Below, piece after piece: positions 1-33,857 of a stretch of 34,081 bases of DNA (its first letter is position 1; each line of letters begins with the position of its first letter). The position numbers and the translations under genes are program-made. Source of the stretch: Prevotella sp. (lineage in GTDB: Bacteria; Bacteroidota; Bacteroidia; Bacteroidales; Bacteroidaceae); NCBI GenBank assembly GCA_017557185.1, contig JAFZAP010000018.1, positions 1 to 34,081 of the forward strand, given 5' to 3'. Below the pieces are notes generated by a model. That model searched no databases. It had not been told where the DNA came from and worked only from the letters and a program-made list of their open reading frames with translations.

Positions 1-3000
1 ATGAGAACTACTAATCTATTCAAGCAATTGCTCCCTTCTCTGGGACAGCTTCTTTCTCCCTCCCTACGGGGGAGGGCTAGGGTGGGGCTTTCTCCCCTCC
101 ATTTGAATCGGGTCTGGGGTTGGCTCCTCCTTGCCTTCTTTATTTTCTCCTCTCCCTTAGGGAGGGGCTGGGGGTGGGCTGTCACCGCCTCGGCACAGGA
201 AGCGTATGCCTGCTACACGTCGTCGAACACGACGCTGACGTTCTATTACGACAACCTGCGGAGCACGCGCACGGGAAGTACTCTTCTCTTGAATACAGGT
301 ACTGATGCACCTAAGTGGAATGGCCCTGGTGCTACGAATATTACTTCTGTCGTCTTTGATGCTTCGTTTGCCAATGCCCGCCCGACAAGCACTTTTGAAT
401 GGTTTTGTTCTATGACAAATCTGACCTCCATCACGGGCATCGAATACCTAAACACCAGCCAGGTAACGAACATGAGTGAAATGTTCACTTCGTGTAAAAA
501 ATTGACGTCAGTCGATCTTAGCCATTTCAACACCAGTAATGTGACATCAATGCACCATATGTTCCAGGATTGTATAGCCTTGTCATCCCTTGATCTGACT
601 TCTTTCAACACAGCGAACGTGACGGCTATGTACTGTATGTTCTTGGATTGTTCCAACCTGACCTCACTCAATCTAAGTAGCTTCAACACCGCAAGGGTAA
701 CTCATATGTATAGTATGTTCTCCGGTTGTAGCAACCTGACCTCACTCAATCTAAGTAGCTTCAACACCTCTAACGTGACCAGTATGTATCATATGTTTAA
801 TGGTTGTAGCAGCTTGACCTCCCTTAACTTGAGCGGTATCAATACCACCCAAGTGACCGATATGAATGCTACGTTCTCTGGTTGCAGCAACCTGACCTCC
901 CTTGACCTGAGCGGCTTTGACACGCATAACGTGACCAGTATGAATGCGATGTTCTCCGGTTGTAGCAACCTGACCTCCCTTGACCTGAGCGGCTTTGACA
1001 CGCATAACGTGACCAACATGTACGCTATGTTCTCTGACTGTAGCAGCCTGACCTCCCTTGACCTGAGTAGCTTCAACACTGCTATGGTAACCAACATGAG
1101 TTATATGTTCAGTAAGTGTTCCAGTCTGACCTCCCTTGACCTGACCAACTTTAATACGGCACTGGTGACTAACATGGATAGAATGTTCTTAGATTGCAGC
1201 GACCTGAAAACCATCTATGCCAGCAGCCTTTGGAATGTCAACAGGCTTACGAACGACGTCAACAACCATATGTTTGAAGGTTGCACAAATCTGGTTGGCG
1301 GTCAGGGAACGACATACAAAAGCAACTATACCGGCATATCCCGCGCCCACATCGACGGAGGCGGGGCCGACCCAGGCTATCTGACCGATCCTAATGCCAA
1401 CGGGGCATATGCCGTGTTGAACGATGGTACGCTCACCTTCTACTACGACAAGCTCCTGCCCACTCGCACTGGTACGATCTACTCGATGCCAGCTTCAACA
1501 AAAAGTCCAGACTGGCCGACATCCTCTTCTGTAACCGCAGTGGTGTTCGACTCTTCGTTTGCCAACTACCAACCGACGAACACAAATAATTGGTTTAAAG
1601 GTATGGCAAGGCTTCCCTTCTTCATTTCTTATATGCCAATCCCATTTATAATTTCAGAAAATACTTTCCCTGATCGCAGTAATCAAACTCTCTTCGTTCC
1701 TGTGGGTTGCCTTTCAAACTATACCACAGCCGATTACTGGAATGAATTTAAGGAAATCAAAGAACCAAACAGGATTACTTTCGAGGATTCAAACGTGGAG
1801 GCTATCTGCGTGCAGAACTGGGACACAGACGGAAATGGCTATCTCGACCAGGTCGAAGCATACATGATCACCGACTTAGGAACCATCTTCCGTGGAAAGA
1901 CCCAGATAACCAAGTTCAACGAGCTGCAGTATTTCACGAACCTGACCACAATCAGCAGTCAAGCCTTCAGCGGCTGCACGGGCCTGACCACTATTGCTAT
2001 CCCCAGCAATGTGACTACCTTCGGTGATCATGCCTTCTCGAACTGCAGCAGCCTGGCAATCATCACCAATCTTAACAATGTGAACACTATCGGCGCGAGT
2101 GCCTTTTATGGTTGCACCAGTCTGGCGAGCGTCAGCATCGATGTCGCTACGGTGGAGAGCAACACGTTTAGTGGCTGCAGCAACCTGAGTCAGGTGACAT
2201 TCGGCAGCAAGGTCGCCAACATTAAGGAGGGAGCGTTTAAGAACTGCACGAAGCTGACCACCATCAGCATTCCTGGTGCGGTGGTTTCCATCAATAGTAA
2301 CTGCTTCGAGGGCTGCACCGCCCTGAATACGGTCACCCTGCATCAGGGCACGAAGTATCTTCTTCCCTCGGCTTTCAAGGGCTGCTACAACCTGCAGACC
2401 ATCAACCTGCCCGAGGGATTGCTTTCCATCGGTGAGAGTGCCTTCCATACCTGTCAGGCTTTGAAGAGCATCGACATTCCCTCGACGGTGACGAATATTG
2501 AAGGCAACGTGTTCCTTCAGTGCACGTCGCTCACGACCGTCACCGTGAACTGGCAGACGCCCCTTACAGTACCCGCCACCGCATTCCCCAACCGCACAAG
2601 GCAGGGGCTTGTCGTGCCCAAGGGCACGCTGGCCGCCTATCAGGCTGCTGACGTGTGGAAGGAGTTCAAGTACTTCCGCGAAGTGGGTGCCGGTTCAACG
2701 ACAATCAAGTTTGCCGATGCCAACGTGGAAGCCCTCTGCGTGCAGCACTGGGATCTCGACGGCGACGGTAAGTTGCAGATCGACGAGGCTGCCTTGGTGA
2801 CGTCGCTGGGCTCGGTGTTCTCAAGCAATGTCAGCATCACCTCGTTCAACGAGCTGCAGTACTTCACAGGACTGACGGCGATTGGCAACAGCGCCTTCAC
2901 CTACTGCACACAACTGACATCGATCGTCATCCCGGAAAACGTGCAGACAATCGGCACGTCGGCCTTCGACGGCTGTACGCAACTGCCAAAGATCGACATC

Positions 3001-6000
3001 CCTGCCAGCGTGACTTCCATCGGACAATATGCTTTCCGCAACACGCCGCGACTGAAGACGGTGACCGTGAACTGGACGACACCGATCTCGGTGACCGCCG
3101 ATGCCTTCCCGAACCGTGCCAACCAGGGACTTTATGTTCCCGCAGGCAAGAAGGCCGCCTATCAGGCTGCCGACGTGTGGAAGGAGTTCATGTGGATTCG
3201 CGAGGCTGGCGAGACCCCGCCCTTCATCGTGTTCGAAGACCCGAAGGTGGAAGAGATCTGTCTTGCGAACTGGGACACCGACGGCGACGGATACTTGCAA
3301 ATGGACGAGGCTGCTGCGGTAACGTCACTTGGAAATAAGTTTAAGAACTCCGAGATTGCCACCTTCGACGAGTTGATTTACTTCACAGGCTTGATCGTCA
3401 CGGGTGCCCAGAGCTTCCGCGGCTGCACCAACCTGAGATCCATAGTTCTCCCGTCGGGTTTGTCGACCATCAGCGGCCAGACCTTCTACGGCTGCACCAG
3501 TCTGGCTAGTGTCGAAATCCCGACAAGTGTTACAGCCATTCAAGGCTCGGCGTTCTCGGGCTGCACGGGCCTGAAGCGCATCGATATTCCCTCGAGTGTT
3601 GAGAGCATCGGCGGGTCTGCATTCAACGGCTGCACCAACCTTGAAGAGGTGACTGTTCACTGGACGACACCTATCACGGGTGTTGACGAAACGGCATTCC
3701 CCGACCGCGCCAGCCAGTTGCTCAATGTTCCAGCAGGCACGAAGGCAGCCTATCGCGCCGCTAATGTATGGAAGGACTTCCTGATGGACTACGGCATTGC
3801 AGTGAAAGGTGTCGACGTGAGCTTCAAGAATAACACCGACATACTGGGCGACGGAAAGGTGAGCTATGACCCCGAAACGCACACGCTGACGCTGAACAAT
3901 GCCAACATCTCCACCGATGCGGCTCCGGGCGTGCAGGTGACACCATACTATCTATATGATGACCTGACCATCAACCTCGTGGGTAGCAACACGCTGACCA
4001 TCTCCGGCTACATCGCCATGCCGCTACGCTGCAACACCACCATCAACGGAACGGGCACGCTGACGCTGACCGGAACGGGCGGTTATATAGATATGCGTGC
4101 CGCAAAACAGCTGACCATCGAGGGCGGCTGCATCATCAATGCCACCGACATCAGCTGCAATACCGACGGAGCGTCGCTGGTGATCAGGGATGTTGACACG
4201 CAGGTGAATTTGACGACAGGTATCAGCGGCTTCGACAGCGTAACGCTGGAAGACGGGCTGACCTTCGCGAAACCGGTGGGCGGCTACTACGACACGACAA
4301 ACAAGTACGTGGCAACAATCTTTGGTAGCCAATGGAACAGTGGTGTTACTATCAGCTCGCGCGGAGACTACGGTTTGAGCGTGAAGGGCATATCCGTGAA
4401 TCCCACCAATCAAGACGACGTGCTGGGTGACGGTACGGTGAGCTTCGATCCCGCAACCCTCACGCTGACACTGAACAACGCCAGCATCGTCACCGAGAGC
4501 GGCCACGCCATAGAGACGATAGCCGACTATAGCGGCGAACAGCTGATTATAGAGCTGTTGGGACAAAACTATATTGATAGCGGTGACGACTATCAGGCGG
4601 ACATCTTGCTGAGCACGAACACATTCATCAAAGGCCCTGGCGAGCTGACGCTCGAGGATAATAGTAGCAGCGCGATTTGGATAAACGGCGGCCACCATCT
4701 GTTTATTACCTACGGCTGTACCATACGCGCCCGCTTCATCGATGCCATAGGCTCCGACCCGGGCAATCTCTTTGTGACTGGTGCCGACACCCGCATCATC
4801 CTGAGAGCAGGTGACGAGACGGAGGCCAACATCTATGGCTTCAACGATGTTATCCTGGATGAGGACAGCGGTCTTGAATTCACCTATCCCGCCGGTGCCT
4901 GGTACGACGGCTACGAACTGTGTGTCATGAACAGCGAAGGCGAAGCCTATGGCGTGACCATCGAATGTCCTCCATACGTCGTATTTGACTCTAGCACTTC
5001 GACGCTGACGTTCTACAACGACAGACAGCGGGCATCGCACAACGCAACGACGGAGAAGGTGTACTTCTTGAACCAAGGAAGCACTGTTCCCGCTTGGTAT
5101 AGCGATAATAGCAGTGCGAGTGTCACCAATGTGGTGTTCCACGAGTCATTTGCCGATGTGTGGCCCACGAGTACCTATGGTTGGTTCACCCAAATGAAAA
5201 ACCTGACCAATATCACCGGTATTGAATATCTGAACACGAGCGAGGTGACGACTATGAGAAGCATGTTCAATAACTGCAGCAAGCTGACGAGCATCGACCT
5301 AAGCCACTTCAATACGGCGAAAGTGACCAGCATGAGGCTTATGTTCTACAATTGCAAAGGTCTGACGAGTCTCAACGTGAGCAGCTTCAATACGGCGAAT
5401 GTGACCGATATGAACTCTATGTTCCAGTATTGCAGCAGTCTGACTGGCCTCGACGTGAGTAACTTCAATACGGCGAATGTGACCGACATGTCGAGTATGT
5501 TCCACACTTGCAGCAGCCTAATGGAGCTCGACCTGAGCAACTTCAATACGGCGAACGTCTCCGACATGCAGGTTATGTTCGTTGATTGCAGCAACCTGAC
5601 GAGTCTCAACCTGAGCAGTTTCAACACGAAGAAAGTGACCGCTATGAACGGCATGTTTTGGGGTTGCAGCAGCCTGACGGAGCTCGACCTGAGCAGCTTC
5701 AATACTGCGAACGTAACCAATATGAAGAATCTATTCATTGATTGCAGCAACCTGAAGACCATCTATGTCAGTGACAAATGGAGTATGGAATCCATAGTTT
5801 CAGGTAATTCAACTAATATGTTCCTGAATTGCACGAGTCTTGTGGGCGGACAGGGCACGGTGTATAGCCCCGATCACGTTCATGAAGGCTACGCCCATAT
5901 CGACGGGGGTGCAAGCAATCCGGGTTACTTCTCGGAGAAGCCTGACGTCCTGCTGGGCGACGTGAACGGTGACGGCAAGGTGGATGTGGCTGACATCACG

Positions 6001-6153
6001 GCCCTGACCAATTATCTGATAGCCTACCCCCAGCCCCTCCCTGAAGGGATGGGAGATGGGTACAACCTCCAGGCGGCGGATGTGGACGGAAGCGGAACGG
6101 TGACGAGTGATGATGTGCCGGCGCTAGTGAACATGGTGCTTGGAAAGGAATGA
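1..6153 (+). CDS. BspA-like modular leucine-rich-repeat surface protein with dockerin-type C-terminus
   Basis: A 2,050-residue predicted secreted protein. The N-terminus (about residues 1-65) is a long signal region ending near TASAQ; its first 14 residues match those of the BspA-like protein at 30501, which supports the start at base 1. Domains in order: 11 BspA/DUF285-type repeats of about 26 residues (about 135-430, pattern LTSLDLSxFNTxxVTxMxxMF); an orphan copy of the header that precedes such blocks (about 470-540); three cassettes, each an EF-hand-like loop (Asp at 608, 918 and 1092) followed by Treponema-type LRRs (IPSSVTSIGxxAFxGC) and an AFPNR...VPxGT tail; two paralogous beta-strand-rich segments (about 1270-1610) with LTLNNAxI; 8 more DUF285 repeats (about 1715-1950); and a two-repeat dockerin-like module (about 1987-2047, DVNGDGKVDVAD then DVDGSGTVTSDD). 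BspA relatives act in adhesion; the ligand here is unknown. Repeat-derived DNA is translated in the signal region and in the dockerin linker. Confidence 0.9.
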   Translation: MRTTNLFKQLLPSLGQLLSPSLRGRARVGLSPLHLNRVWGWLLLAFFIFSSPLGRGWGWAVTASAQEAYACYTSSNTTLTFYYDNLRSTRTGSTLLLNTGTDAPKWNGPGATNITSVVFDASFANARPTSTFEWFCSMTNLTSITGIEYLNTSQVTNMSEMFTSCKKLTSVDLSHFNTSNVTSMHHMFQDCIALSSLDLTSFNTANVTAMYCMFLDCSNLTSLNLSSFNTARVTHMYSMFSGCSNLTSLNLSSFNTSNVTSMYHMFNGCSSLTSLNLSGINTTQVTDMNATFSGCSNLTSLDLSGFDTHNVTSMNAMFSGCSNLTSLDLSGFDTHNVTNMYAMFSDCSSLTSLDLSSFNTAMVTNMSYMFSKCSSLTSLDLTNFNTALVTNMDRMFLDCSDLKTIYASSLWNVNRLTNDVNNHMFEGCTNLVGGQGTTYKSNYTGISRAHIDGGGADPGYLTDPNANGAYAVLNDGTLTFYYDKLLPTRTGTIYSMPASTKSPDWPTSSSVTAVVFDSSFANYQPTNTNNWFKGMARLPFFISYMPIPFIISENTFPDRSNQTLFVPVGCLSNYTTADYWNEFKEIKEPNRITFEDSNVEAICVQNWDTDGNGYLDQVEAYMITDLGTIFRGKTQITKFNELQYFTNLTTISSQAFSGCTGLTTIAIPSNVTTFGDHAFSNCSSLAIITNLNNVNTIGASAFYGCTSLASVSIDVATVESNTFSGCSNLSQVTFGSKVANIKEGAFKNCTKLTTISIPGAVVSINSNCFEGCTALNTVTLHQGTKYLLPSAFKGCYNLQTINLPEGLLSIGESAFHTCQALKSIDIPSTVTNIEGNVFLQCTSLTTVTVNWQTPLTVPATAFPNRTRQGLVVPKGTLAAYQAADVWKEFKYFREVGAGSTTIKFADANVEALCVQHWDLDGDGKLQIDEAALVTSLGSVFSSNVSITSFNELQYFTGLTAIGNSAFTYCTQLTSIVIPENVQTIGTSAFDGCTQLPKIDIPASVTSIGQYAFRNTPRLKTVTVNWTTPISVTADAFPNRANQGLYVPAGKKAAYQAADVWKEFMWIREAGETPPFIVFEDPKVEEICLANWDTDGDGYLQMDEAAAVTSLGNKFKNSEIATFDELIYFTGLIVTGAQSFRGCTNLRSIVLPSGLSTISGQTFYGCTSLASVEIPTSVTAIQGSAFSGCTGLKRIDIPSSVESIGGSAFNGCTNLEEVTVHWTTPITGVDETAFPDRASQLLNVPAGTKAAYRAANVWKDFLMDYGIAVKGVDVSFKNNTDILGDGKVSYDPETHTLTLNNANISTDAAPGVQVTPYYLYDDLTINLVGSNTLTISGYIAMPLRCNTTINGTGTLTLTGTGGYIDMRAAKQLTIEGGCIINATDISCNTDGASLVIRDVDTQVNLTTGISGFDSVTLEDGLTFAKPVGGYYDTTNKYVATIFGSQWNSGVTISSRGDYGLSVKGISVNPTNQDDVLGDGTVSFDPATLTLTLNNASIVTESGHAIETIADYSGEQLIIELLGQNYIDSGDDYQADILLSTNTFIKGPGELTLEDNSSSAIWINGGHHLFITYGCTIRARFIDAIGSDPGNLFVTGADTRIILRAGDETEANIYGFNDVILDEDSGLEFTYPAGAWYDGYELCVMNSEGEAYGVTIECPPYVVFDSSTSTLTFYNDRQRASHNATTEKVYFLNQGSTVPAWYSDNSSASVTNVVFHESFADVWPTSTYGWFTQMKNLTNITGIEYLNTSEVTTMRSMFNNCSKLTSIDLSHFNTAKVTSMRLMFYNCKGLTSLNVSSFNTANVTDMNSMFQYCSSLTGLDVSNFNTANVTDMSSMFHTCSSLMELDLSNFNTANVSDMQVMFVDCSNLTSLNLSSFNTKKVTAMNGMFWGCSSLTELDLSSFNTANVTNMKNLFIDCSNLKTIYVSDKWSMESIVSGNSTNMFLNCTSLVGGQGTVYSPDHVHEGYAHIDGGASNPGYFSEKPDVLLGDVNGDGKVDVADITALTNYLIAYPQPLPEGMGDGYNLQAADVDGSGTVTSDDVPALVNMVLGKE
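31..178 (+). repeat. Two or three G-rich hairpin elements inside the signal-peptide codons
   Basis: Two clear copies of a dispersed element with the form CTCCC-TCCCT, short loop, GGGAGGG, then a G-run tail lie at about 54-88 and 147-179. A shorter related arm begins at 31 (CTCCCTTCTCTGGGAC). The G-runs at 68-87 and 160-178 each have four tracts of three or more G, which fits the G-quadruplex pattern. They are read in frame as LSPSLRGRARVG and SSPLGRGWGWA, which lengthens the signal peptide to about 65 residues. Confidence 0.8.
655..1045 (+). repeat. 78-bp tandem repeats in the DUF285 block
   Basis: Coding repeats of 78 bp (26 codons). Units starting with AACCTGACCTC at 655 and 733 share their first roughly 45 bases almost exactly, and those at 889 and 967 share more than 60 consecutive bases. 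This points to recent duplication or gene conversion, because other units of the same block are much more diverged. Confidence 0.85.
6022..6060 (-). repeat. Inverted copy of the G-rich hairpin element in the dockerin linker
   Basis: On the minus strand this reads GGGAGGGGCTGGGGGTAGG, matching the elements at 147-179 and 30531-30565 but in opposite orientation. It lies in frame between the two calcium-binding repeats of the dockerin-like module, where it is translated as YPQPLPEGMGDGY. The element therefore occurs in both orientations inside open reading frames of surface proteins. Confidence 0.8.
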
Positions 6154-6247
6154 CCCCTTTACCAAGAATGGAAAATTGATAATTGGAAATTGATAATTGA
6201 TAAAGGAAAATTGAAAATAAAACATTAACGCTCCTTAACTCACTGAA

Positions 6248-6284
6248 AATGGGCAATTCTGAATAATAAACAGAATTGCCCATT
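6248..6284. terminator. Hairpin downstream of the first BspA-like gene
   Basis: A perfect 14-bp inverted repeat (6248-6261 and 6271-6284, core TGGGCAATTCTG) with a 9-base loop lies about 95 bp after the stop codon. It could end transcription from the left, although the T-tract behind it is weak (TATATTT). Its right arm abuts the left 49-bp inverted repeat, so it may instead belong to that element. Confidence 0.5.
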
Positions 6285-6607
6285 ATATTTGGACACTGTG
6301 TAACACAGAAGACCTGCACCCGCTGCACCCACTGCACCGGTGCAGCAGGTGCAGAGTGAAAAGTGCGCTCGACCCGAAGGGGCGCTTGCGTAATAAATGG
6401 AGCAAGAATAGTGAAAAAGACATACGGAACAAACGTGACATAAGTTTTTTGCGGTGTATAGCGGGGAAAGAACAGTGCGAAGCACATTGAACCTTTTGAA
6501 CGTGACAAAGTCACAGTTGAACTTCTTGCGCTCGAGCTTGCTCGCTTTCGTAGTGTAGCGGAGAAAGAACTCGACCGTAGGGAGACAGTGGGCTCTTGTT
6601 TTTGATC

Positions 6608-6808
6608 AGAACTCTATGCTTTACGCATCAAAACTCTATGCTTTGTGACTCAAAACTCAATGCTTTTCAGCGGTCACCGATATGCAGTTATTCCGCTACC
6701 TTTATACGGTAGGGTCACTACCACATAGTGGTAGTGAGTACACCAGATGCTGGTAGAAACATTACCACATAGCGGTAATGACATTACCAGCATGCGGTGC
6801 CATTCTGG
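6608..6808. repeat. 22-bp-period tandem array, nine units (array 1)
   Basis: Units start at 6611 and recur every 22 bp to 6787. The first units carry ACTCTATGCTTT (ATGC at 6616, 6638, 6660 and 6682). The later ones are palindrome-like, CTACCACATAGTGGTAG type, with CC at 6699, 6721, 6743, 6765 and 6787 and GGT at 6708, 6730, 6752, 6774 and 6796, all in exact register. The sequence type changes part way along the array while the 22-bp phase is kept. Confidence 0.85.
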
Positions 6809-6950
6809 TAATGAATTTTGCAATCATTAACAATTGACAGATGAACAGACAAGCAGGAAAAATCTGCGTGATCAGTGGAATCTGTGGGAAAATACTTCTG
6901 TCCGTTTGTCTCGTATGTCTTAACCTTGTTTTTTCACTATTTTCATAGTT

Positions 6951-7075
6951 GTGTCTACTTTCTTAGGAAAGATGTCTACCTTTTCAGGAAAGTGTCTACA
7001 AAGTCAGGAAATAGAGTGTCTACAATATCAGGAAATAGGTAGAAATGTGTCTACCTAAATTAGGAAAAGACACTA
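6951..7075 (+). repeat. GTCTAC / AGGAAA iteron-like repeats
   Basis: Five copies of GTCTAC (6953, 6974, 6994, 7018, 7049), each followed after about 5-7 bases by TCAGGAAA or TTAGGAAA. Spacings are 21, 20, 24 and 31 bp, so unlike the neighbouring array the period is not fixed. They resemble a cluster of protein-binding sites. No replication gene lies nearby in the window. Confidence 0.7.
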
Positions 7076-7296
7076 TTCCCGGTGTCGCCGGTGCAACGGG
7101 TGCAGGTCTTCTGGGTTGCATAGTGTCCAAATATAGTGCGCTTTTGCGTAATCCGTGCAAAAAGGTGTGTTTTCGGAGAGTTAATGTTGGTTAAGGCTCT
7201 CTGAATTGATATGAATTATCCGGGCAGACACAGGGGTCTGCCCCTACGGCTGGCATTGCTCCCAAATACTTTGGGGCATCTCCAAAATCATTCCCA

Positions 7297-9269: not shown

Positions 9270-10802
9270 TTACTTCAAAGCTTTGTTGAGCATGAAATAC
9301 ACTTCGTTGTTGCGGAGAGTCTGCTTGAAGTCGGCGATGTTGGTCTTCTTGTTGATCTTGATGTACTCGATGCCAACCATCTCGGCGAAGTCCTCCCAGT
9401 ACTCCTCGTTGATGTCGTAGGAGAAGGCGCTGTGGTGAGTACCACCTGCGAGAATCCATGCGGCAGCACCAATCTCGAAGGTAGGCTGAGGAATCCACAG
9501 GGCGCTGGCAACGGGCAGGTGAGGCATGGGCTTCGGCTCGATGCACTCTACCTCCTGCGAGATCAGGCGGAAGCGATTGCCGAGGTCAACGACGGTAGCC
9601 TTGATGCCAGGACCGGTCTTCGAGGTGAAGACGAGGCGTGCGGTCTCCTGCTTGCGGATGCCGATGCCGAGGAAGTGTACCTCGAGCTTGGGTTTGTCGA
9701 CAGCGATGAGCGGGCAGATCTCGAGCATGTGGCTCTGCAGGCACGAAGAGCGGTCGCCGGCGAAGTTCAGCGTGTAGTCCTCAAGGAACGAGCAGCCTGT
9801 AGGCATGCCCTGCTGCATCACCCAAAGTGTGCGGAACAGGCAGGCGGTCTTCCAGTCGCCCTCGGCACCGAAGCCGTAGCCTTCTTCCATGAGGCGCTGT
9901 GAGGCCAGTCCGGGAATCTGGTCGAAGCCGAGGAAGTTGGGATCGTCGATGTCGGCACCGCCGAGGTCGTCGAAGTTGGTGGTGAAGGCAGTAGCGCCCT
10001 CATCCTTCAGCACGCGGCGCAGGGCAATCTCAGCCTTTGCTGAGTTGTGCACCTTCTCCCAATAAACCTTCTCGCCGCACTCATCGATCTTGATGGTGTA
10101 GAGCTTCTTGTACTCCTCAACGAGTTCGTCGGCCTCAGCGTCGGTCACCTTCTTGAAGTACTCCATGAGGCTGGAAACGGGATAGTAGTCAACATGATAT
10201 CCCATGCGCTGTTCGAACTCCACGCGGTCGCCATCGGTCACAGCAACGTTGTTCATGTTCATACCGAACATCAGGCAGCGTACGTTGTGAGCATCGGCAA
10301 CACCGGCAGCAACGCGAGCCCAGACGGCAATCTGCTTCTGAGCCTTTTCGTCCTTCCAGTAGCCGCAGACCACCTTGCGAGCCACGCGCATGCGAGTGCA
10401 GATGTGTCCGAACTCGATGTCGCCGTGAGCGCTCTGGTTCAGGTTCATGAAGTCCATGTCGATGGCGTCCCAGGGGATTTCGGCATTGTACTGTGTGTGG
10501 AAGTGGAGTAGGGGCTTCTGCAGCTGCTGCAGACCCTTGATCCACATCTTGGCGGGCGAGAAGGTGTGCATCCATGTGATGATACCGATACACTTCTCGT
10601 CGTTGTTGGCAGCCAGCATCACCTGCTCGACTTCCTTCGAGCTGTTGGCTGTGCCCTTGTAGACAATCTTCACGGGGATGTTGCCACCATCGTTCAGGCC
10701 AGCTACCATTTCCTTGCTGTGGGCGTCGACGGCAATCACGGCATCACCACCATAGAGCAACTGTGCGCCAGTCACCCACCAAATTTCATAATCTTTAAAC
10801 AT
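9270..10802 (-). CDS. araA: L-arabinose isomerase (AraA)
   Basis: A 510-residue cytoplasmic metal-dependent isomerase converting L-arabinose to L-ribulose. The length is normal for the family (about 500). Recognisable segments are the N-terminal WWVTGAQLLYG, the active-site stretch GYGFGAEGDWKTA containing the catalytic Glu, LQSHMLEICP with a metal-ligand His, and GGTHHSAFSYDI near the C-terminus with the second His. The start MFKDYEIWW fits family alignments. It lies 184 bp after araD; the gap holds two C/G-rich hairpin repeats. The stop codon lies only 6 bp from the CACAGAG repeat. Confidence 0.95.
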   Translation of the reverse strand: MFKDYEIWWVTGAQLLYGGDAVIAVDAHSKEMVAGLNDGGNIPVKIVYKGTANSSKEVEQVMLAANNDEKCIGIITWMHTFSPAKMWIKGLQQLQKPLLHFHTQYNAEIPWDAIDMDFMNLNQSAHGDIEFGHICTRMRVARKVVCGYWKDEKAQKQIAVWARVAAGVADAHNVRCLMFGMNMNNVAVTDGDRVEFEQRMGYHVDYYPVSSLMEYFKKVTDAEADELVEEYKKLYTIKIDECGEKVYWEKVHNSAKAEIALRRVLKDEGATAFTTNFDDLGGADIDDPNFLGFDQIPGLASQRLMEEGYGFGAEGDWKTACLFRTLWVMQQGMPTGCSFLEDYTLNFAGDRSSCLQSHMLEICPLIAVDKPKLEVHFLGIGIRKQETARLVFTSKTGPGIKATVVDLGNRFRLISQEVECIEPKPMPHLPVASALWIPQPTFEIGAAAWILAGGTHHSAFSYDINEEYWEDFAEMVGIEYIKINKKTNIADFKQTLRNNEVYFMLNKALK

Positions 10803-15589: not shown

Positions 15590-15720
15590 TATGGAGCATG
15601 CCTCCGTACCCTCTGGAGCATTGCTCCATAGGTATATAGAGCAGTGCTCCGTAACATACAGAGGCGTGCTCCGTAACATACAGAGGCGTGCTCCGTAGGG
15701 TGTAGAGCAATGCTCCGTAG
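15590..15720. repeat. 22-bp-period tandem array, six units (array 2)
   Basis: Six imperfect palindromes of the form GGAGCATTGCTCC-GTA. CTCC recurs at 15602, 15624, 15647, 15669, 15691 and 15713, giving steps of 22, 23, 22, 22 and 22. The array lies in the divergent region between the ara operon leader and the cation transporter promoter. Two units (GAGGCGTGCTCCGTAACATA) are nearly identical; the others have diverged. Confidence 0.85.
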
Positions 15721-21242: not shown

Positions 21243-21440
21243 AAAGCAATGTTCTTAGACGCTCAAGGCATTGTTTCCAGCCTCTAAGAGCATTGTTCTC
21301 AGCCTCCTGGAGCATTGCTTTCGACCTCCCAAAGCATTGTTCTTGGACTGCGAAAGCATTGTTCTAAGCGTCTGAAAGCATTGTAGTTAGCCTCCAGAAG
21401 CATTATTCTTGGCTTGCGAAAGCATTGCTGGAGAGCAAAT
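21243..21440. repeat. 22-bp-period tandem array, nine units in exact register (array 3)
   Basis: The core GCA recurs at 21246, 21268, 21290, 21312, 21334, 21356, 21378, 21400 and 21422, every step exactly 22 bp. The consensus is roughly AAAGCATTGTTCTTAGCCTC. Units are diverged (about 60-85 percent alike by eye) with the GCATTG core best kept. The last two units form the end of folC, including its stop codon. The array separates folC from the gal promoter. Confidence 0.9.
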
Positions 21441-22665
21441 CAGCGACGACATAGCTGCTTCCGCCGATGAAGATAAAGTCGTCGTGATGAGCATCGGCAA
21501 AGGCTGCCTGATAGGCTTCTGCTACAGAGGGGTATGTGTCGCCGTTGAGCTGATGACGGCGGGCGAGTTCTGCAACGTGTTCTGCTGGAATGGCTCGGTG
21601 TGTGGAAGCCTGCGTGAAATAGTAGCAGGCGTGCTTGGGCAACATGGCGAGTACGGTGTCAATGTCCTTATCGTCGACCATCCCGAAGACGATGCGCAGC
21701 TGCCGACAGGGTTGCGATGCGATTTGTGGGGCAAGGTATTGCCAGGCGGCTGGGTTGTGGCCTGTGTCGCAAATGACGAGTGGCTGCCGCCGGAGCGTCT
21801 GCCAACGTCCCATCAGCCCGGTGTTTTCACAGACATGGGAAAGAGCTGAGGCGATGTTGCCATCAAGTTGCAACAAACGAGACAGCTGGCTGGCAGCGCA
21901 GAGGATGGTGCGGAGGTTTCGTTCTTGGTAATTGCCTTTGAGTTCGAAGTCGGGCAGGGGAGAGGGCATCGGGTATTCCTCGGCAAAGATAATGGGTGCC
22001 TGTTCTTGAAGTGCCTTTTGCTCAAATACGGGCCGTGTCTCAGGTGTTGTCTCGCCAATGACGACGGGTACTCTTGGCTTGATGATGCCTGCCTTCTCGG
22101 ATGCGATCTCGGCAAGTGTCGAACCGAGGAATTGCGTGTGGTCGAGGGCGATATTGGTGATGATGCAGAGTTCCGGACTGATGATGTTCGTGCAATCCAG
22201 TCGTCCGCCCAAGCCTACTTCGATAACAGCCACATCCACATGAGCATCAGCAAAATATTTGAATGCCAAAGCTGTTGTAAGCTCGAAGAATGATGGATGA
22301 AGAACGTCGCTATTCTGGTCAGCGTTGTTCCAAACGATGAAGTCCTCTACAAAGTCGATGACGTATTGCTCGGGTATGCACTCGCCGTTCACGCGGATGC
22401 GCTCGCGGAAGTCAACAAGGTGAGGCGAGGTGTAGAGCCCGACGCGCAAGCCAGCTTCCTGCAGGATGCTTGCCAGCGAGTGGGAAACAGACCCCTTGCC
22501 ATTGGTGCCTGCCACATGGATGGTCTTGTAGTGCTGATGGGGGTGTCCGTAGTGGGCGTCGAGGGTCTCGGTGGTCTGCAGACCAGGCTTATAGGCCGCC
22601 GCCCCGATGTGTTCGAACACCGGTGTGGCGTTGTAGAGATATTGTATGACTTCCTCGTAGGACAC
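21403..22665 (-). CDS. folC: Bifunctional folylpolyglutamate / dihydrofolate synthase (FolC)
   Basis: A 420-residue cytoplasmic Mur-ligase-like ATPase that adds glutamate to dihydropteroate and to folates. Visible are the P-loop VAGTNGKGSVSHS (about 51-63), YTSPHLVDFRERIRVNG, DVAVIEVGLGGRLDCTN, ITNIALDHTQFLG, and the C-terminal CDTGHNPAAW. The length is normal. It is the third gene of grpE-dnaJ-folC, 11 bp after dnaJ. Its last residues (SNAFASQE) and TAA stop are encoded by array 3, so the array has grown into, or replaced, the original 3' end. Confidence 0.93.
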   Translation of the reverse strand: MSYEEVIQYLYNATPVFEHIGAAAYKPGLQTTETLDAHYGHPHQHYKTIHVAGTNGKGSVSHSLASILQEAGLRVGLYTSPHLVDFRERIRVNGECIPEQYVIDFVEDFIVWNNADQNSDVLHPSFFELTTALAFKYFADAHVDVAVIEVGLGGRLDCTNIISPELCIITNIALDHTQFLGSTLAEIASEKAGIIKPRVPVVIGETTPETRPVFEQKALQEQAPIIFAEEYPMPSPLPDFELKGNYQERNLRTILCAASQLSRLLQLDGNIASALSHVCENTGLMGRWQTLRRQPLVICDTGHNPAAWQYLAPQIASQPCRQLRIVFGMVDDKDIDTVLAMLPKHACYYFTQASTHRAIPAEHVAELARRHQLNGDTYPSVAEAYQAAFADAHHDDFIFIGGSSYVVADLLSSNAFASQE

Positions 22666-30500: not shown

Positions 30501-33500
30501 ATGAAAACTATCAATCTTTTCAAACATCTACTCCCATCCCTTCAGGGAGGGGTAGGGGGTAGGCTCCTTCTTCTGCTCTGCCTCATTGTGGCAGGAGTAC
30601 AGAGTGTGTGGTCGTGGACCAACTATCATCTTAGCTTCGAACAGAATCTAACTATTAATGGAGTTACTTATGAACTATATTCTGTACAGGAATATGATGC
30701 CTGGATTCAAGATGCTGAACAATTATTTGGTCATTACGTAAGTATTATCGGTTCTGTAGGCTATAATGAATTTCCAACTAGTAATGTATCCTATTATGCT
30801 ACAGTAGTAGACATCACCGCTACAGGAGAGGTCGTGATTCCTGAAATTATTACCAATGGTGGACATTCCTATATCATAAAAGGCATCTCGCATCTCGAAC
30901 AAGCAGTTAGGACTTGGGAAGGTACATATAGAATCTACGAGTCCGGCGAAGGAGCTCAAGGGCCTGACTATGATAAAACTACTTGTTACGAATATACCAT
31001 TGCAGAAACTCCCGTTGACATTTCTGCTAACGACATCACCAAACTGACGGTTAATGGAAAAGCTACGTTTAAGGGGAACTTTAGTGCTCCTTCATGTACG
31101 AGTGTGGAGTTTAAGGATGATGTTACGTTTAAGGGAAACTTTAATGCCCCTTCATGTACGAGTGTGGAGTTTAAGAAAGATGTCACCTTTGAGGCAAATG
31201 TGTCTTTCCCTGCAGCCACGAATATCGTGTTTGATAATTGTGCATTCATAAAAAGCACCGCCACACTTGTGTGTAGCAATGTGAGTGAACTGAGGTTTAA
31301 TTACCTATCACACGAAGGAAAGATACAATGCAATAGTCTGACAGACATCTATTACCAAAGCAACATACCTGGTTATTCAGGTGCGGCTAGCAATTACTTT
31401 ACGGGTGTGGCGCTTAATCAAGTAACTGCCCATGTGGTCAACAAGACTGAAGAAGAATGCGCTACGATGCATTCCACTTGGGCTGTGTACAGTGAATTTG
31501 ACAACATAGTACCCTGCGATACCCCGGTTCAGGGACACGCTGTGAACTTTGTGTTGATAGCAGGAATGTGCGACAAAGGCATTGAAGTGTGGAAGAATGA
31601 CGAGTTGTTGGGTTCTATCTCCGAAGAGGGTGGAACGTTCTTTGAAGCAATAGAAGATGCGATATACCTGCAGCTTCGTGTCCCCAGCGAATATCTGAAG
31701 AAGATTACCATCAATGGCGAGGATATGACTACATCTTTGTCTGCCACCACGCCTGACGACCCCGACTACGAAGGCTATATGTTCTATATCATGAGCGGCT
31801 TGTCAGAGACGTCAATCGTCGAAGTCAAGTACGACTATTCACTGTTTGCAACCTCGTCAATTCGTTTTGAAAGTTACAATGGAACGGGAAGTATAGATTA
31901 TTCAAAAATATGGTTCGATAATGGCAGATGGGAAACAAATCATGGAGGTGTTACCTGGGAAGAAAAGAAGACTATCTCCAAGATTGAGGTCACAATGAGG
32001 CCAGATGTTGATGACTTTGATTGGACGCAAGGCCACAACACATTGGGTACGTTGACCAACAATGGCGATGGAACTTACAACTATGTCTTACAAGGCACGG
32101 ACCTGACAAGTTCTGTCATTCCTATTTGGTTCCCAACAACTGATTACGGAAATGTGAAGACCTCTGTCAGCTCTCGTAACGATATTCCTTTGGGCTACTA
32201 CTTCGGAGAATACGTCAATGCAGAACGCGAGTTTATGTCAAACTTTGACCAGACGAAGGAACAGTTCATAAATACAAATGTAGTCGTATACCACTACGAT
32301 GCTTGGAGTTCGAGCCAAGGCGGAGGTTACTCGACAGGCATCATCTACGTGCAGGTACCACAAGGCACTACGTTCCGCATTGTTGAGAACGGCAGTGACG
32401 AAACTTCGAAATGTTATTGGCACAATGCCAACGAGCTATTCTCGGAACTTCAGAGTGTTTACAACGTCGATTCCTACCTCCAATACACTTGCCCCGTCGA
32501 TGGTTACTACTATCTGTTGCAGGATGTAGAGCATGACTCTTACATCATTGTCGATGACGGGACAACACTACTTAGTGAAATTGAGTCGCCCTTCCAGATT
32601 GTTCAGACAATTACGGCTTATGGCGATGCAACCCTGTCGTTGCATAAGAGCAACGGGGACGTGGTGGAAAGCGTGAGCAACGGTGAGTCGAAGACCGCAA
32701 GTATGGAGAAGGGTGCAAACATGCAACTTGTAGTAACCCTGCCCGCTAATGCTTCTGCTGCCAACTACGAAGCCCACTTGATTATCGACGGCATTGATAA
32801 CATCCTGACCACAATGACAGGCGATGGTGGCGTCTTGACGTTCCAAGCCTTTGACATGGAGAACGTCACATCTTCACACAACATCACCCTGATAACGAGG
32901 CAGACGGGAGGGCTCGCTGCTACCGATGTCATCGAGTTTGCCGATGCTAACGTGAAAGCCATTTGCGTCGCTGCGACAACAGGTTGGGACACCAATGGCG
33001 ACGGCGAACTCTCGAAGGCAGAGGCTGCAGCAGTAACATCGCTGAAGGTGGATGGTGCAGAAAATACTGTATTCTATAACAATACGACAATTACTTCGTT
33101 TGATGAGTTCCAGTACTTCACGGGGATTGAGACTATTGAAAGTAAAGCTTTCTATAACTGCCAAAGCCTGAAGTCAATAGTATTGCCCAATAGTATTACT
33201 CAAATAATGAGCAACGGCTTCTATAATTGCAAGGAATTGGAGTTTGTCGACCTGCCAGAAAATCTCTTGTCGATATCCGATTTAGCTTTTGCGTACACGA
33301 AACTAAAGACCATCTTTATACCAAAGAATGTAACTACAATCCAAACCCGTGCATTTATGTCTTGTAACAGCTTGCAAACTATCGCAGTCGATGAAGAGAA
33401 TACGAAATTCAAAGCCGGTGTCGGATACAATGTGATAGTCGAAAGTGGAACAACGGTCAAGGTCGGATCTAAGTATTCCCAGATTCCAGAAGGTGTAACG

Positions 33501-33857
33501 GGTATTTCTATGTATGCTTTCAATGGTCTTACAGGGCTAACTACGATTACGATACCAAGTACAGTTACTTCTGTGGGCCTCTCCTCATTTGCTGGATGTA
33601 CTAACCTGAAATCTGTTGTCTCCAAGAATGAAAATCCGCCCACGATGGGTAATAACGCTTTCTCCAGCATCAATGCCAATTGTGTGCTCACAGTTCCTTA
33701 TGGGACGAAAGGGGCATACATTGGTGCCGGCTGGACAACAGACATCTTTAAGGGCGGTATTGTGGAAGATATGTCGCAATATGATGTGAATAATGATAGC
33801 CAGGTCAATATTGCCGACGTGACGAAGCTGGTGAATAAGGTTGTCGGCAAAGAATAG
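30501..33857 (+). CDS. BspA-like leucine-rich-repeat surface protein with half dockerin-type tail
   Basis: A 1,118-residue predicted secreted protein. The signal peptide (about 1-37) has the hydrophobic core RLLLLLCLIVAG preceded by LPSLQGGVGG, which is the translation of a G-rich hairpin repeat. Residues 40-820 are strand-rich with no family I can name; a 63-bp coding direct repeat (FKGNF(S/N)APSCTSVEFK) lies at about residues 190-230. At 830 an EF-hand-like loop DTNGDGELSKAE opens the same cassette used three times in the protein at base 1, followed by about seven Treponema-type LRRs (853-1066). The C-terminus DVNNDSQVNIADVTKLVNKV (from 1095) is a single dockerin-like repeat. Probably cell-surface or secreted; the ligand is unknown. 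Confidence 0.88.
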   Translation: MKTINLFKHLLPSLQGGVGGRLLLLLCLIVAGVQSVWSWTNYHLSFEQNLTINGVTYELYSVQEYDAWIQDAEQLFGHYVSIIGSVGYNEFPTSNVSYYATVVDITATGEVVIPEIITNGGHSYIIKGISHLEQAVRTWEGTYRIYESGEGAQGPDYDKTTCYEYTIAETPVDISANDITKLTVNGKATFKGNFSAPSCTSVEFKDDVTFKGNFNAPSCTSVEFKKDVTFEANVSFPAATNIVFDNCAFIKSTATLVCSNVSELRFNYLSHEGKIQCNSLTDIYYQSNIPGYSGAASNYFTGVALNQVTAHVVNKTEEECATMHSTWAVYSEFDNIVPCDTPVQGHAVNFVLIAGMCDKGIEVWKNDELLGSISEEGGTFFEAIEDAIYLQLRVPSEYLKKITINGEDMTTSLSATTPDDPDYEGYMFYIMSGLSETSIVEVKYDYSLFATSSIRFESYNGTGSIDYSKIWFDNGRWETNHGGVTWEEKKTISKIEVTMRPDVDDFDWTQGHNTLGTLTNNGDGTYNYVLQGTDLTSSVIPIWFPTTDYGNVKTSVSSRNDIPLGYYFGEYVNAEREFMSNFDQTKEQFINTNVVVYHYDAWSSSQGGGYSTGIIYVQVPQGTTFRIVENGSDETSKCYWHNANELFSELQSVYNVDSYLQYTCPVDGYYYLLQDVEHDSYIIVDDGTTLLSEIESPFQIVQTITAYGDATLSLHKSNGDVVESVSNGESKTASMEKGANMQLVVTLPANASAANYEAHLIIDGIDNILTTMTGDGGVLTFQAFDMENVTSSHNITLITRQTGGLAATDVIEFADANVKAICVAATTGWDTNGDGELSKAEAAAVTSLKVDGAENTVFYNNTTITSFDEFQYFTGIETIESKAFYNCQSLKSIVLPNSITQIMSNGFYNCKELEFVDLPENLLSISDLAFAYTKLKTIFIPKNVTTIQTRAFMSCNSLQTIAVDEENTKFKAGVGYNVIVESGTTVKVGSKYSQIPEGVTGISMYAFNGLTGLTTITIPSTVTSVGLSSFAGCTNLKSVVSKNENPPTMGNNAFSSINANCVLTVPYGTKGAYIGAGWTTDIFKGGIVEDMSQYDVNNDSQVNIADVTKLVNKVVGKE
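30531..30565 (+). repeat. G-rich hairpin element in the signal-peptide codons
   Basis: CTCCCATCCC, TTCA, GGGAGGGGTAGGGGGTAGG: the same element and orientation as at 54-88 and 147-179, again 30 bp after the ATG of a BspA-like gene and read in frame as LPSLQGGVGGR. Confidence 0.8.
31062..31188 (+). repeat. 63-bp coding direct repeat
   Basis: Two adjacent copies of a 63-bp unit (ACGTTTAAGGG(G/A)AACTTTA(G/A)TGC start) encode FKGNF(S/N)APSCTSVEFK(D/K)D. The near identity at DNA level points to a recent duplication inside the second BspA-like gene. Confidence 0.8.

Follow-up and report, generated by a model that had tools for sequence, protein, structure and literature searches.

In the portions of PMC4596501 on which we draw, the BrickBuilt MITE of Porphyromonas gingivalis, reported from this species and from P. 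gulae, carries 23-nt direct repeats of one consensus and has IS5-like ends (GAGACC..); its leader and tail showed bidirectional promoter activity in E. coli reporter tests, and 22- and 41-nt repeats of strain W83 are mentioned without their sequence (PMC4596501). The element that carries the array studied here resembles BrickBuilt in that both are dispersed intergenic elements of the Bacteroidales with short tandem repeats and inverted ends. It differs in the palindromic lattice of the array, the in-phase change of unit type and the link with a protein family, none of which is described for BrickBuilt in those portions of the paper. An assignment of the array to BrickBuilt was rejected, as its period is 22 bp rather than that of a 23-nt direct repeat and its later units are palindromic; the IS5-like terminal repeats given there (GAGACCTTTGCA) are likewise unmatched by the ends of the present element (TTAACCAnCATTAAC and TATATTTGGACACT).

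Other repeat systems share single features with the arrays. The iterons of plasmid origins and the centromere repeats of ParR and TubR are, like them, repeats on a helical step, and are bound by protein, but each has one sequence per replicon at one locus, whereas the arrays described below are of many types and occur chromosome-wide. The REP/BIME sequences with their RAYT transposases are, like the arrays, dispersed intergenic palindromes, and we know of no fixed 22-bp step among them. A REP/RAYT origin was rejected: the genome from which the array comes has three Y1_Tnp hits and none stands directly beside an array, the nearest row lying about 1.2 kb away (contig C7) with another gene between.

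The bacterial chromatin proteins HU and IHF are mostly regarded as weakly specific. HU-HIG proteins (PF18291), which belong to the HU/IHF superfamily and are encoded by genes that the rows of repeats adjoin, form a family expanded in the Bacteroidetes; in a sequence-based study of 2017, Burroughs and colleagues reportedly proposed that they act against mobile elements, and to our knowledge no binding site has been described. Taken singly, the parts assembled here are familiar: HU-like proteins, operators and mobile elements. A lattice with a fixed step, the letters of which change by paralogue and by species, is undescribed as far as our searches go; these covered open-access literature, including portions of PMC4596501 and PMC5771137, and we make no claim of absence from print. 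We propose, with a probability of roughly 0.56, that the arrays are cooperative DNA lattices of HU-HIG dimers, which would be autoregulatory at the HU-HIG gene and architectural elsewhere.

Unit types and the 22-bp register

The window, that is, the whole stretch of 34,081 nucleotides that was analysed, contains an array at 6605-6802 that was read directly and tabulated at 22 bp. It consists of nine units, starting at 6605, 6627, 6649, 6671, 6693, 6715, 6737, 6759 and 6781 on the forward strand, and all unit centres, read by eye, stand in column 12 of the 22-bp table. Three first-type units (AACTCTATGCTTT; AAAGCATAGAGTT on the opposite strand) occupy 6605-6670 with centres at 6616, 6638 and 6660, two transitional units follow in phase at 6671-6714 (centres 6682 and 6704), and four second-type units (CACTACCACATAGTGGTAGTG and variants, which are ACC..GGT palindromes) fill 6715-6802 (centres 6726, 6748, 6770 and 6792). 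The first-pass annotation had claimed that the 22-bp register persists through the change of unit type, and the nine centres at 6616+22k confirm this observation; the CC marks that it placed at 6699-6787 and the GGT marks at 6708-6796 were also correct on re-reading. Palindromy is weak in the first four units, the AACTC/GCTTT arms of which pair at 3 of 5 positions, and clear in the five units from centre 6704 on. The array matches itself locally at a lag of 22 with a score of 0.59, and its dyad score is 0.62, as against 0.41 with columns permuted (z 6.2). A CRISPR array was rejected, given that the units vary and there is no alternation of repeat and spacer. Elsewhere in the window, 1-6153 and 30501-33857 encode two large BspA-type leucine-rich-repeat proteins, the first of which ends in a dockerin domain.

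Two other 22-bp arrays of the window proved to be real, and they have a related palindrome (A type): one at 15594-15720, composed of GGAGCATTGCTCC palindromes and lying between divergent genes, and one at 21243-21430, composed of AAAGCATTGTTCT and variants, 27 bases of which overlap the end of the ORF at 21403-22665. The first unit of a related element in another genome (G027, L109) is AAAGCATAGCTTT, an A-type palindrome, and the first units of the window array look like A-type derivatives. The second-type motif recurs at 22-bp steps on four contigs of the window's own genome (C55, C6, C89 and C104).

To place these arrays, noncoding scan windows were surveyed for periods of 12-60 bp in 38 stretches of the own genome (460 kb; the window together with 18 of the 20 stretches of one set and 19 of the 20 of another). 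A period of 22 bp was found in 37 scan windows, 44 bp in 9, 12 bp in 4 and every other period in at most one, while shuffled sequence gave zero. As 8 of the 20 stretches in the first set and all 20 in the second had been selected by repeat hits, it is relevant that in the 16 stretches unselected for repeats 22 bp also led, with 10 scan windows (12 bp, 3; 20 bp, 2; 44 bp, 2). Two contigs that read N (L017 and L026) and had inflated every period were left out, and the low-complexity filter of the array surveys removes many pure rows of the B type defined below.

Three unit types were recognised in the own genome: A (RRAGCATTGCTYY), B (AGTAAATTAACTTAATTTACT) and C, the type of the window array. 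B-type rows usually have 5-7 units with A-like units adjoining. The A type (GGAGCATTGCTCC) and the B type (AAATTAACTTAATTT) meet within single arrays, and the lattice is kept across the change: the distance from an A centre to the nearest B centre was divisible by 22 in 43 of 45 cases (19 loci, A core with at most 1 mismatch) and in 99 of 118 when 2 mismatches were allowed. Three scrambled cores searched at the latter tolerance, the control by which the first-pass annotation proposed to expose chance matches, showed no such concentration, their largest residue classes being 3/13, 5/20 and 9/51. The noisier pair of first-type and second-type cores gave 22 of 47 at residue 0. Adjacent A cores lay 22 bp apart 46 times, 23 bp 3 times, 21 bp never, 44 bp 10 times and 66 bp 5 times, and control cores had at most 2 occurrences at any distance. 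A register kept across one type change alone is a 1-in-22 coincidence, and its recurrence makes chance an inadequate explanation. A B pair pattern (3 mismatches) matched 180 times per strand in the own genome and an A pair pattern (1 mismatch) 163 times, with 0 matches for the backward controls; over 295 genomes of the order, A pairs had one match each in 5 others.

The carrier element and the spread of the lattice

The window array lies within a dispersed composite element of approximate extent 6222-7195, the outer ends of which resemble TTAACCAnCATTAAC. Its inverted repeats lie at 6278-6340 (left, forward strand) and 7079-7141 (right, reverse strand), and share 84% identity over 63 bp. A TATATTTG box, read from the sequence, is directed into the element at 6284-6291 (forward strand), and a second one is directed inward from the right end at 7128-7135 (reverse strand); the box fits the Bacteroidetes -7 consensus TAnnTTTG. 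BLAST with parts of the element returned 95 matches in the own genome, including the element itself and cross-matches between its two ends. At 10 of 15 other places the order was the same, with the outer end and the TATATTTG box followed by a stretch of variable length and then by units on the 22-bp lattice, and second-type units were added in some copies, the window copy among them; at the remaining 5 the outer module stood without an array. These array-less modules (TTAACC..TATATTTGGACACT..) were seen at L061:6500-7120, L058:3050-3500, L062:2500-2990, L064:2860-3300 and L068:2900-3300, and the outer module looks like a mobile promoter-like module. The element shows general features of MITEs, namely terminal inverted repeats, a lack of coding capacity, many partial matches and short two-ended copies (L057 and L064), and no clear target site duplication was seen by eye at these two copies. 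When the element end with the first units was searched over 60 genomes, it was found in the own genome, with a good match in G027 and fragments in G009 and G028. Within the element, a further tandem repeat of about 21-24 bp (GTGTCTACAAAnTCAGGAAATA), apparently non-palindromic, is present at 6951-7038; it resembles the repeated ends of an insertion sequence.

The position of the array in such an element raises the alternative that the arrays are passive minisatellites within miniature transposable elements, spread by tandem duplication and transposition, with the 22-bp step just inherited. On our own reading, A-B-A rows keep similar spacers between copies and would thus multiply as wholes, and BrickBuilt, as far as the consulted portions of its description go, is a minisatellite inside an element of this kind (PMC4596501). 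A comparison of ten other copies of the element (nine from the own genome and one from G027, with the window copy left out) speaks against it: gap openings number 1 per 92 substitutions in the array but 33 per 109 in the GC-rich stretch before it, with 0 per 94 in the outer stretch and 1 per 28 in that inside the box. The copies share descent and the gap events are therefore not independent, but the contrast stands within the same molecules, and this low indel rate favours a constraint on length over mere generation. The first-pass annotation had left it undecided whether the period is selected or is fixed by the generating mechanism; that the period is kept was found to extend beyond the window, and the indel contrast leans towards the first of its two options. 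Furthermore, unit centres, beyond phase alone, coincide across types, the letters of the units are unrelated among species while the step is constant, and rows concentrate upstream of one protein family, as presented below. Of the three alternatives to HU-HIG lattices, we regard minisatellites as the one that survives best, although still unlikely.

The constancy of the step was seen in 39 stretches from 30 other species of the genus, where 22 bp was found in 24 scan windows, 12 bp in 13 and other periods in at most 4. Part of these stretches had been picked for hits, and the initial scan covered periods from 14 bp only, 12 bp being added in a later one. In the survey repeated with the 31 stretches unselected for repeats, 22 bp led with 20 scan windows (12 bp, 7; 13 bp, 4; elsewhere at most 3), and 13 of the 31 stretches had a 22-bp window. 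The palindromes of the other species are unrelated to those described above: TTGGCAGCGGCCGCTGCCAA, CTCTTTGATGCAAAGAG, TTGTCGCACGATCGTGCGACAA and a row in which TGGATAACAAATTATCCA gives way in phase to TGTATAATGAGTTATACA. Thus, the earlier suggestion that the three arrays of the window form one 22-bp family holds beyond the window, with 22 bp as the leading period in the own genome and in the genus; its interpretation is supported and is here extended.

Here and throughout, we infer the genus and family names of the comparison genomes (G handles). Three genomes from other genera of the family were compared: one had four rows with a step of 21 bp, of which two are clear palindromes on visual inspection (ACATTCC..GGAATGT and ATCTCC..GGAGAT), the second had three 22-bp windows, one of them palindromic (TTTCCC..GGGAAA), and the third had none; within the 21-22-bp windows of other family genera, L322:12088 reads coding-like and L322:19903 is a simple repeat adjoining masked bases. 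Twenty stretches from twenty other families of the order gave 22 bp in 1 scan window, 23 bp in 2 and 15 bp in 3. At orthologous loci upstream of a cation-efflux gene, gene order was unconserved in the relatives that were read, and hence no empty site was found; without masking and with the threshold lowered, these 30 loci gave 3 windows at 22 bp, which did not lead there, and 9 at 15 bp.

The exact A pair was present in 79 stretches of named genomes, 61 of them titled Prevotellaceae or Prevotella sp., 12 from other Bacteroidaceae/Bacteroides (Mediterranea massiliensis, Caecibacteroides pullorum, Candidatus Bacteroides merdavium and others) and 6 from unrelated bacteria. Eleven of the 79 loci were inspected, including three from unrelated bacteria: in Spirulina subsalsa, a perfect tandem row of 22-bp units has a AGCATTGCT core (L248:4366-4475), an Akkermansia-labelled bin has a row of about 22 bp with the same core (L290:7290-7420), and Mycobacterium has the pair alone. 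Such rows outside the Bacteroidales mean that neither the step nor the core proves kinship, and the Spirulina row, with its A-like core far from the family, fits passive minisatellites. Independent origin, or a binning error in the Akkermansia case, are possible accounts of these two rows. In viral contigs, A pairs had 11 matches at the 22-bp step and 10 at a control 21-bp step, so viral enrichment is absent, and the B triple had 0.

HU-HIG genes and their upstream rows

A reader of such arrays was sought as a dimeric protein with many paralogues, which differ in specificity and share one geometry, and the HU-HIG family was picked. The choice was made before the flanking DNA was examined, and was recorded afterwards. 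PF18291, which also matches plain HU in several control genomes, had 3-23 matches in each of 19 genomes of the family (f1) and 1-3 in 8 genomes of other families, and all five of the HU-HIG proteins tested passed its cut-off (66-84 bits vs 26.2; 4e-18 to 1e-23). In 20 stretches around HU-HIG genes, a 22-bp window was present in 10 and a 23-bp window in one.

For a direct comparison, we used 60 of 234 profile matches from 11 genomes, with flanks on the contig and taken blind to rows, and scored genes and controls alike. A 21-23-bp row was present at most 450 bp upstream in 28 of these 60 genes, as compared with 24 of 581 control ORFs (odds ratio 20, p=2e-18), and at most 450 bp downstream in 8 of the 60, two of these (L378 and L379) having 21 bp as a multiple of 7. 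The association was replicated, with 8 of the first 20 genes and 20 of the later 40 having an upstream row. HU-HIG genes have longer upstream gaps (median 330 vs 73 bp), and gaps were therefore matched between 59 HU-HIG genes (one with a negative gap was dropped) and 525 control ORFs. The difference held for gaps of 150-500 bp (21/37 vs 11/123, p=5e-9), 250-500 bp (17/28 vs 9/68) and at least 250 bp (22/45 vs 19/145), with odds ratios of 6-13; as the controls include genes from stretches chosen for arrays, the comparison is conservative. The first-pass annotation had asked whether array type correlates with a particular DNA-binding protein gene, and for rows and HU-HIG genes the answer is positive; the association, which like all the evidence presented here is one between sequences, is strong. 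Since rows precede about half of the HU-HIG genes examined, HU-HIG proteins are the prime suspects for reading the rows in Prevotella of the gut and the rumen.

Between the end of the best four units and the start codon lie 30-236 bp in 26 of the 28 cases, and the 28 upstream rows are palindromic as a set (0.651 vs 0.542, p=1e-7), with z of at least 1.5 in 18. A TAnnTTTG box marks the row start in 8 of 28 (0.4 expected) and lies between row and start codon in 7 of 28 (0.9 expected). For the other 32 of the 60 genes no row reaches the threshold, and several of the 28 rows lie close to it. A HU-HIG profile that we built ourselves detected none of these genes in random stretches totalling about 1.06 Mb, for which the density of PF18291 matches predicts 4-5. 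One of the 79 named A-type loci holds a HU-HIG gene, which is expected if most rows are dispersed, yet lends no support. In G099, repeats of 7- and 8-bp multiples adjoin two HU-HIG genes (L378 and L379), and the L379 row stands among 8-bp repeats.

With few exceptions, each of the 22 upstream rows that were compared has a sequence unlike that of the others. In G178, the units of two close paralogues are related, TCAAAGTCnGACTTnGA being repeated every 22 bp in one and TCAAGAGTCCGACnTnGA every 23 bp in the other. The A type is found upstream of HU-HIG genes in the own genome (L347) and in G099 (L377), the proteins of which are 51% identical, and a 96%-identical paralogue of L347 (L348) has an A-type row about 400-580 bp upstream, outside the counted 450 bp. 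Together with the A-type first unit of the related element in G027, this makes an A-type HU-HIG protein the likely candidate reader of the first half of the window array. A B-like type precedes L401 in G006. B-like pairs match 29 times per strand in that genome, and one or more of these matches lie at L401; close relatives of the L401 protein were sought in the own genome and none was found. For the second half of the window array, no second-type row (CTACCACATAGTGGTAG) was found upstream of a HU-HIG gene in seven own HU-HIG stretches or in the compared upstream rows, a search that covers the genes remaining after five of the eleven own HU-HIG matches fell at contig ends (C7, C72, C105, C19 and C27). 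These positions look as if HU-HIG genes and their rows had broken the assembly.

Some palindromes are dispersed as well. That of L371 occurs at 18 places in G026, including its own gene (40 forward and 29 reverse matches; two places were matched at 3 mismatches alone), and in G100 before the HU-HIG gene L353 and at one other place; it had 0 matches in 6 other genomes, as had the backward control. At the dispersed places that were read (five in G026 and one in G100), the adjoining genes are unrelated. For L388, the palindrome occurs nowhere but at its own gene. L353 and L371 thus have a palindrome in common although their proteins are 39% identical, while L352 and L353, in one genome and 69% identical, have different ones. 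Over 28 genes, protein similarity and array similarity are weakly correlated (rho 0.13, p 0.03), which may reflect either fast turnover of palindromes, or a crude comparison of units, or a looser pairing than we propose.

Possible readings: DNA lattices, RNA hairpins and other proteins

Dyad symmetry is significant over the arrays as a whole. The mean dyad score of 48 arrays of the own genome was 0.554, vs 0.468 with columns permuted (p=6e-9), and that of 20 arrays of other species was 0.591 vs 0.473 (p=7e-6); z was at least 1.5 singly in 38 of the 68. Palindromic units with short centres would also be expected if the arrays were transcribed and the 22-nt units folded as rows of RNA hairpins (attenuator, stabiliser or sponge), the spacing being that of hairpin plus linker, and the -7-like box right before the row in the 8 HU-HIG cases mentioned above would have the row transcribed. 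The two arms of the units, moreover, change together across the type change of the window array (z 3.3; excess of +0.10 over the phase-choice control). The window array is an exception in this respect: the mean excess of unit-by-unit arm covariation over that control was -0.001 in the 48 own arrays and -0.010 in the 20 others. Arm covariation was dropped as evidence, as 34 of 38 arrays exceeded an arm permutation but the effect was gone when dyad phase was likewise chosen on column-permuted arrays. In the 38 arrays with dyad z of at least 1.5, G.T mismatches showed no overall excess over A.C mismatches (176 vs 166), although single arrays vary in the share of the two (heterogeneity p 0.01). 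The rows have no bias towards gene ends: own rows lie in 15 tandem, 9 convergent and 7 divergent gaps (7 of 31 between divergent genes) as against 76/35/30 gaps overall, and rows of other species in 11/6/3 as against 109/36/43, a placement as expected for sites read as DNA. No Rfam family was matched in the window at gathering thresholds. Since overall covariation and orientation bias are absent and the steps of 21, 22 and 23 bp each correspond to two turns of B-DNA, we take the lattice to be read as DNA, and we hold RNA hairpins to be improbable, ranking them behind minisatellites.

In the proposed HU-HIG lattice, the dyad axes of imperfect palindromes would stand two helical turns apart (22 bp in Prevotella), so that like faces of neighbouring bound dimers would meet. 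The most likely readers are the HU-HIG proteins, the relatives of HU and IHF that have multiplied in this family. Every paralogue would have its own palindrome, and about four copies of it before its gene, near the promoter, would serve autoregulation; for some paralogues, further rows dispersed among unrelated genes would give the protein the role of a sequence-directed nucleoid protein. The palindrome could change because specificity can change, and the step could not because it would be set by the packing of dimers. The window array would be such a row inside a dispersed element, with A-derived first units and then another palindrome on one lattice.

The same lattice could be a cooperative binding array of another protein or proteins, with HU-HIG genes merely among the targets, and all evidence for a DNA lattice fits this too, as do the position of most rows far from any HU-HIG gene, the weak correlation between protein and array and the 69%-identical pair with different palindromes; nevertheless, we consider it the least probable of the alternatives, as HU-HIG genes carry differing palindromes rather than a single common one, and types shared before HU-HIG genes across species (L347/L377 and L353/L371) are unlike the action of one common regulator.

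If HU-HIG proteins do read the rows, a HU-HIG branch that multiplied in a family of major gut bacteria would be supplied with targets by its own phased operator rows. The binding site of each paralogue could then be read from the genome, the purpose of the expansion would be open to binding and deletion experiments, and DNA geometry would be conserved while the sequence is free to change. A more tentative extension, to which we give somewhat less than even odds, is a code from paralogue to lattice: each HU-HIG protein would have its own palindrome on the common two-turn step, mixed rows would form one continuous filament, and a turnover of specificity would rewrite the letters of chromosomal sites in their hundreds, with the lattice constant (21 or 22 bp, depending on the genus) left unchanged. 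Such a code would amount to a sequence-specific, self-renewing marking system of the nucleoid.

Two further arrays were noted during the survey. A genome from a different family within the order has a tandem array of CACAATCTTGTCAATTTTTATCT with a period of 23 bp (L211:8230-8321 and 9645-9736), perhaps a like phenomenon with another step. In G100, a ten-unit, two-type 22-bp row (L192:6845-7090) lies between what we take to be a relaxase-like gene upstream and a sigma-54-activator-like gene downstream.
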